Shown: positions 19,736 through 20,944 of the stretch, in pieces | Layout: the number at the start of each line of letters is the position of its first letter | Position numbering within the stretch: position 1 is the first letter of the stretch | Source: Prochlorococcus sp. AG-363-N16 | GTDB taxonomy: Bacteria; Cyanobacteriota; Cyanobacteriia; PCC-6307; Cyanobiaceae | Length of the DNA stretch: 64,000 nucleotides | NCBI GenBank assembly: GCA_003280135.1 | Contig: QCFW01000003.1 | Coordinates: 1-64,000, forward strand | Direction of reading: 5' to 3' | Made by a program: the position numbers and the translations under genes | Notes under the pieces: generated by a model | Databases searched by the model: none | Seen by the model: the letters and a program-made list of their open reading frames with translations, nothing else | What the model was told of the DNA's origin: nothing

Positions 19736-19815
19736 GGATCAATTAATAGTTAAAATTTATTTTATGTCTGTTCCTTATACTGATAACTTCATAAACATGT
19801 ATTTCTTTTATTGAT

Positions 19816-20944
19816 TTGTTAGATCTTACAGATTTCAAGAGAGACCTTTCTTTACTTATTGATCGCCTGAGCAAAGCTCAGGACTGCCTTTGACGTCCCT
19901 GCGTTAAATGCTCGTCAAGCCGATTTTGAACAAATTGCCTCGCAACCAGACTTTTGGAATGATCAATTCAATGCCAAGAAGTTGATGAGGCAATTGGATG
20001 AAGTTAAAGATCAATTAAAAAAATTAAATGATTGGCAAAGAGTGATAAAAGATGCAAATGCATCTTTAGAACTCTTTGATCTAGACCCAGATGAGGAGAT
20101 GCTTTATGAGGCTAAAGAAGGACTTGATAAATTAAAAGTTGAATTAGATCTTTGGGAACTAGAACGTCTTTTAAGTGGTCCTTATGACAAAGAAGGAGCT
20201 GTTTTAACTATTAATGCTGGAGCTGGTGGGACAGATGCACAAGATTGGGCTCAAATGATTTTAAGAATGTATACCAGGTGGGCTGAAGAACATGGAATGT
20301 CCGTTACTATCAATGAACTTTCAGAAGGTGAAGAAGCTGGTATAAAAAGTGCGACTGTTGAGATTGAAGGTAGGTATGCATATGGTTATTTGCAGAAGGA
20401 AAAAGGAACTCATCGATTGGTAAGGATTTCTCCATTTAACGCAAATGGCAAGAGACAAACTAGTTTTGTTGGAGTTGAAGTTATGCCAAAACTTGAGCAA
20501 GAGGTTGATTTAGATATTCCAGACAAAGACTTAGAAATAACCACAAGTCGTTCTGGAGGCGCAGGTGGTCAAAATGTGAATAAAGTCGAGACTGCAGTGC
20601 GGATTCTTCATATTCCAACTGGTGTAGCTGTTCGATGTACGCAAGAACGATCACAGTTGCAAAATAAAGAGAAAGCTATGGCATTGCTGAAGTCGAAATT
20701 AATGATCATTGCTCAAGAACAAAGAGCTGCTGAAATTGCTGACATTAGAGGCGATATTGTTGAAGCTGCGTGGGGCAATCAAATACGTAATTATGTGTTT
20801 CATCCTTATCAAATGGTAAAGGATCTGCGAACATCTAAAGAGACCACTGACATTGATGCTGTTATGAATGGTGATTTAGATCCATTTATTCAGGCTCTTT
20901 TACTTCAGGTTCTAGATAACCAAGATAATGAATTAGACGATTAG
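19816..20944 (+). CDS. prfB: Peptide chain release factor 2, made by programmed +1 frameshift
   Basis: RF2 releases peptides at UGA and UAA. The gene has two frames: 25 codons from a TTG at 19816 end at an in-frame UGA (19891-19893), and the second frame resumes with GAC at 19892 and runs to TAG at 20944. Joined as 19816-19890 plus 19892-20944 it encodes 375 residues, normal for RF2. The first part reads '[20 protein letters not shown]', matching RF2 N-termini; the second part starts '[20 protein letters not shown]'. The GGQ motif is in '[13 protein letters not shown]'. No in-frame ATG exists before an upstream TAA, so TTG is the only reasonable common start. It heads a forward run through ybeY, dgkA and trpG. 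Confidence 0.95.
19880..19894 (+). promoter_or_regulatory. prfB programmed +1 frameshift site
   Basis: The sequence AGGACTGCCTTTGAC contains the canonical slippery CTT-TGA-C of bacterial prfB (19888-19894) with an AGGA Shine-Dalgarno-like element four bases upstream of CTT. When RF2 is scarce the ribosome pauses at UGA, the Leu tRNA slips from CUU to UUU and reading continues at GAC. The AGGA is weaker than the AGGGGG of E. coli. Both flanking frames give RF2-like protein, which is the main evidence. Confidence 0.92.

Follow-up and report, generated by a model that had tools for sequence, protein, structure and literature searches.

Programmed +1 frameshifting in prfB, the gene of release factor 2 (RF2), is a standard and long known mechanism and the textbook case of a shift stimulated by a Shine-Dalgarno (SD) sequence, and in +1 shifting a duplex beside the ribosomal E site is thought to destabilise the pairing in the P or the E site. 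The prfB shift has been surveyed in over 12,000 genomes, and in the accessible portion of that survey the consensus approaches AGGGGG three nucleotides before CTTT, while a conserved hairpin is not mentioned in that portion (PMC12421855). Huang et al. reported that an artificial 12-bp hairpin placed before CUUUGA in an E. coli lysate gave about 60% of the +1 stimulation of the SD, and this only without RF2 (PMC6321510). Cho et al. showed that the effect of an upstream hairpin depends on base pairing and proximity; in a -1 system the activity went down by about half when the spacing was increased from 2 to 5 nt (PMC3639245). In the dnaX -1 frameshift, too, one recoding site is served by an RNA stem together with an SD-like sequence (PMC3711429).

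The locus described here lies on the forward strand of a window of 64,000 nucleotides, which is the whole stretch of contig QCFW01000003.1 of Prochlorococcus sp. AG-363-N16 that was analysed. With the E. coli system as described in the accessible part of the survey (PMC12421855) it shares the CTT-TGA-C site, a UGA near codon 26, an SD-like element upstream, the RF2 product and the conservation of the site. The gene starts with TTG (19816-19818), from which a zero-frame leader of 25 codons (19816-19890, the first residue of the product being Met) runs into the shift site CTT-TGA-C at 19888-19894 (CTT 19888-19890, TGA 19891-19893). Re-pairing by +1 on TTT makes GAC at 19892 the next codon, and the main RF2 frame (19892-20944, 350 amino acids) is closed by the stop TAG at 20942-20944. 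The early in-frame UGA with the rest of RF2 in the +1 frame, as well as the slippery CTT-TGA followed by C, are thus both present, and CTT is found in 172 of 172 genes of the family. A profile search assigned the product to RF2 (NCBIfam TIGR00020, 469-473 bits against a cut-off of 370, own genome included). The original prediction, which had located the break of the RF2 gene, the 25 codons from TTG, the UGA at 19891 and the continuation at GAC 19892 at these very positions, is borne out by the reading frames and the profile match. Its warning that gene finders would tend to report a truncated RF2 was also justified, as a mechanical ORF call shortens prfB to a start at TTG 19982 and 320 amino acids. 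A direct start of full-length RF2 in the main frame was considered and rejected, because a TGA interrupts this frame seven codons before GAC and the codons in between include no start.

The recoding site is read identically in essentially every relative, with every close relative read carrying it, and the strict pattern of the prfB shift site was found in 364 of 390 cyanobacterial genomes. This conservation across hundreds of genomes rules out chance, a sequencing error or a pseudogene. Loss of the frameshift in those class genomes that lack the strict pattern was rejected as well, since the shift site is present wherever the gene is readable, in some cases as TGA-T or TGA-G, a few loci (e.g. 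L360) being not interpretable. In the cyanobacteria concerned (L351-L353, L361 and L362) the hairpin described below is kept beside the altered site. Near the prfB of one cyanobacterium we also observed a second RF2-like stretch, 47% identical and with an inner TGA (G220:C1:4524955-4525962). Upstream of the gene, an extended -10 promoter-like element, TGATAACTT, is found on the forward strand at 19781-19789, 26 nt before the start codon. Of 162 distinct relatives, 125 keep the pattern TGnTAnnnT(C) in the 45 nt preceding the start (shuffles: mean 9.5, maximum 19), for the most part at a distance of 23-26 nt, and this position would imply that the 5' leader is very short. The upstream reading frame AUG-UAU-UUC-UUU-UAU-UGA (19797-19814) was rejected, because the closest relatives do not show it at the corresponding position.

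It is in the stimulatory element that this locus departs from the described systems. Instead of the usual strong AGGGGG or AGGAGG three nucleotides before CTT, which is found in the sister classes, there is only a weak internal SD-like AGGA (19880-19883), lying one base nearer to CTT and to the P site than the SD of E. coli. The anti-SD GGATCACCTCCT is present in the 16S rRNA of the own genome, and its duplex with AGGA has a predicted energy of about -4.0 kcal/mol against -10.3 kcal/mol for the AGGGGG of E. coli, AGGGGGUAU, in keeping with the earlier description of an AGGA with a four-base spacer to CTT that is weaker than E. coli's. Across the class Cyanobacteriia the SD is similarly weak (mean -4.0 kcal/mol over 96 distinct sequences). 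Here it reads CAGGAY, differing from the consensus in the accessible portion of the survey (PMC12421855) both in position, by one base, and in its overlap with a conserved hairpin. Since a system of this kind is defined by its shift site and its product, with the SD as the variable part, the weak SD marks this prfB as a variant.

The hairpin itself, which the original prediction overlooked, occupies 19866-19882 on the forward strand, with the 5' arm CCTGAGC (19866-19872), the loop AAA (19873-19875) and the 3' arm GCTCAGG (19876-19882), the last overlapping the AGGA. As RNA it is a stem of 7 bp with a 3-nt loop, CCUGAGC-AAA-GCUCAGG, whose base stands 5 nt before CTT, and its predicted fold has an energy of -11.3 kcal/mol (z -2.17, 6 of 200 shuffles being equally good); when 164 nt are folded, the hairpin has one pair fewer and z is just -1.25. 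Other forms occur elsewhere, namely CCUGGGC-CAU-GCCCAGG in marine Synechococcus and CCUGGGU-AAA-ACCCAGG in many other cyanobacteria. A comparison with Rfam gave no family match.

The strongest evidence on the stem comes from codon choice. In the 172 family genes, the leader codons from -9 to -4 are frozen beyond what the protein needs: CGC at -9 in 165 of 170, CTG at -8 in 171 of 172 and CAG at -4 in 170 of 172, although CTG makes up merely 108 of 2568 Leu codons in AT-rich genes, and although the AT-rich genomes prefer CAA, with CAG in 68 of 71 at the leader site but in just 447 of 1620 cases within gene bodies. When synonymous codons were drawn from each gene's own usage for 186 family genes, a full 7/7 stem arose in 31 genes on average and in 44 at most, against 179 observed, and in gene bodies the same stem geometry was met in 144 of 54498 windows. 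Among 73 distinct sequences 96.1% of the stem cells are paired, and sliding one arm by one base lowers this to 43-54%. As for covariation, there are 30 double-change cells against 13.5 in shuffles, and none of 500 shuffles, which ignore the relatedness of the sequences, reaches 30. The compensatory changes fall at pairs 7-15 (G-C, A-U, G-U) and 9-13 (C-G, U-G, U-A), and stem covariation is seen also in a second sequence set. A phylogeny-corrected sign test for pair 7-15 counted 2-4 changes for and 0 against, events too few for significance. Covariation by itself is therefore no more than suggestive, and more weight falls on the synonymous null; judged by these comparisons, the base pairing of the upstream stem is under selection.

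Regarding its distribution, at least 6 of the 7 stem pairs are formed in 313 of 318 prfB loci across Cyanobacteriia, a set that includes some duplicate entries, in which one and the same genome was reached by two routes. The stem is absent from 18 genomes of the same phylum outside the class with a readable site, from E. coli and from nine records of other phyla, the other-phyla records having been read from plasmid or chromid. Most of these genomes and records outside Cyanobacteriia have a strong SD (AAGGAG, AGGAGG or AGGGGG), and the mean predicted energies mirror each other: hairpin and SD have -10.8 and -4.0 kcal/mol in Cyanobacteriia, -3.6 and -10.2 kcal/mol in the sister classes, and -3.7 and -10.4 kcal/mol in other phyla. 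This suggests that in Cyanobacteriia one helper of the slip, the strong SD, was exchanged for another, the hairpin. As far as can be told, a class-wide hairpin in place of the strong SD is an undescribed variant; within the open-access literature, which is an incomplete sample, neither a hairpin in the prfB of cyanobacteria nor the conserved non-AUG start was found described. Two family genomes (L018 and L177) have both lost the SD (CAAGA) and weakened the stem to 5 pairs and about -4.5 kcal/mol, and are candidates for decay of the switch.

We consider it most likely, with a probability of roughly 0.65, that this prfB is a standard autoregulatory +1 frameshift in which the 7-bp hairpin, instead of a strong mRNA-16S rRNA duplex, promotes the slip. 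When RF2 is plentiful, translation would terminate after 25 codons. When it is scarce, the ribosome would wait with UGA in the A site, the hairpin ending 5 nt upstream of CUU would most likely refold behind the paused ribosome and promote +1 slippage as an internal SD duplex does, and the peptidyl-tRNA-Leu would slip from CUU to UUU, so that translation resumes at GAC. A stable stem beside the E site is indeed present (7 bp, predicted). Since +1 shifting at CUUUGA is reportedly stimulated by artificial hairpins placed upstream, the hairpin has probably taken over the role of the SD; by analogy with them the natural hairpin probably stimulates the shift in vivo, and we infer that at this site it is the chief stimulator. 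The likeness to those constructs (PMC6321510; PMC3639245) extends to a stem just upstream, the CUUUGA site and the proposed refolding behind the ribosome. Those hairpins were however designed or viral-derived, with a tested stem of 12 bp, while the prfB hairpin is natural and has 7 bp, and its 5-nt spacing from CTT is inside the range tried in PMC3639245 but not the best there. In contrast to dnaX, where the shift is -1 and the stem is downstream, the shift here is +1 and the stem is upstream (PMC3711429). Given this conserved overlapping hairpin, which is absent where the SD is strong, the earlier proposal that the weak SD means low expression probably tells only part of the story, and stimulation of the prfB frameshift may not be low despite the weak SD.

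The chief rival to the hairpin as stimulator is that AGGA still drives the shift and the hairpin masks it, acting as an attenuator that tunes or damps the SD:anti-SD pairing or blocks stray 30S binding. The 3' arm covers AGG at 19880-19882, Gln is almost invariably encoded by CAG there, also in AT-rich genomes preferring CAA, and an SD-like motif persists in 309 of 318 class loci. Because the 3' arm contains the SD and most genomes keep both, the two roles are inseparable by sequence alone. Nevertheless, in five genomes of three families the SD core is mutated to CAGCA while CTTTGA and 5-7 stem pairs are kept in all five, and two of these genomes, L354 and L355, carry G-C for C-G at the outer pair, a double change that rescues the stem, not the SD. 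Considering also that the duplex amounts to a mere -4.0 kcal/mol and that its SD is shifted by one base towards the P site relative to that of E. coli, we hold masking to be unlikely, though deserving of attention. A role outside frameshifting, such as transcript stability, transcriptional pausing or ribosome spacing, could be served by any short stable stem, and the lack of an Rfam match agrees with it; the fixed place 5 nt from the slip site throughout the class and the trade-off with SD strength make it improbable.

Two further explanations bear on the coding sequence. The leader peptide RL(G/S)xAQD is conserved, and the stem might be its by-product, a proposal already disfavoured and now hardly credible in view of the synonymous null (31 full stems of 186 against 179) and of codons -9 and -8, frozen to rare codons in AT-rich genomes. 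Another proposal is that a shorter RF2 is also made from an internal in-frame ATG at 19985-19987 (forward strand; residue 31 of the main frame, which is Met in about 98% of the family), which would bypass the frameshift and give a basal supply, the weak TTG start setting the regulated one. It draws on the conservation of the codon, which is ATG in 184 of 188 genes of the family but codes for Leu in 48 of 55 other cyanobacteria, and on the region near 19985 being what gene callers would pick. An SD-like motif precedes the ATG in just 10 of 188 genes (178 of 188 being without), there is no synonymous constraint around it, and the Leu/Met helix position is readily explained by the protein, so that this internal start appears very improbable. 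The hairpin as stimulator remains our preferred reading.

The start codon is a second unusual feature of the gene. At codon -25 the 172 picocyanobacterial genes, several of which come from near-identical genomes, have TTG in 97, GTG in 75 and ATG in none, which supports the TTG start first proposed, and in-frame stops are frequent just upstream. In other cyanobacteria 53 of 55 genes start with ATG (a tally made by eye). In a few Cyanobium-like genes the start seems to be a GTG lying further upstream, and in one it is GTG -24. One genus (g9, about ten genomes; L202-L209, L213) has a different N-terminus with ATG at about codon -32, the sole clear return to ATG. On the gene tree the prfB start changed at least 7 times, always between TTG and GTG, while five neighbouring genes show about 36 start changes, of which about 32 lead to ATG or away from it; a Fisher test of this difference is a guide only, as genes and genomes share ancestry. 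A general habit of non-ATG starts was rejected, since the neighbouring genes mostly start with ATG and nearly all of their changes involve it, and the RF1 gene has ATG in most of the same genomes. The kept non-AUG start is likely under selection, and it probably limits initiation on the prfB leader and with it the number of ribosomes entering. The earlier idea that low expression and feedback may be set in two places is indirectly supported by the non-AUG start kept across the family.

A bolder extension, which we regard as doubtful and quite unlikely, is that throughout Cyanobacteriia mRNA refolding has replaced 16S pairing as the driver of the RF2 shift, that the hairpin would stay open when a second ribosome trails behind, so that the switch also reads leader traffic, and that the picocyanobacterial non-AUG start would give the hairpin time to refold behind a lone ribosome. 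If so, prfB would sense the RF2 level and the initiation load together.

A class that seems to swap the rRNA-mRNA duplex for a hairpin of about equal predicted strength would indicate that it is the duplex beside the E site that matters, not rRNA pairing as such, and the prfB genes of Cyanobacteriia offer natural sequences for testing this idea. Annotation tools and consensus logos based on AGGGGG would overlook the hairpin element. In addition, the non-AUG start that the most abundant phototrophs of the ocean have kept offers a second way to approach how the dosage of RF2 is set.
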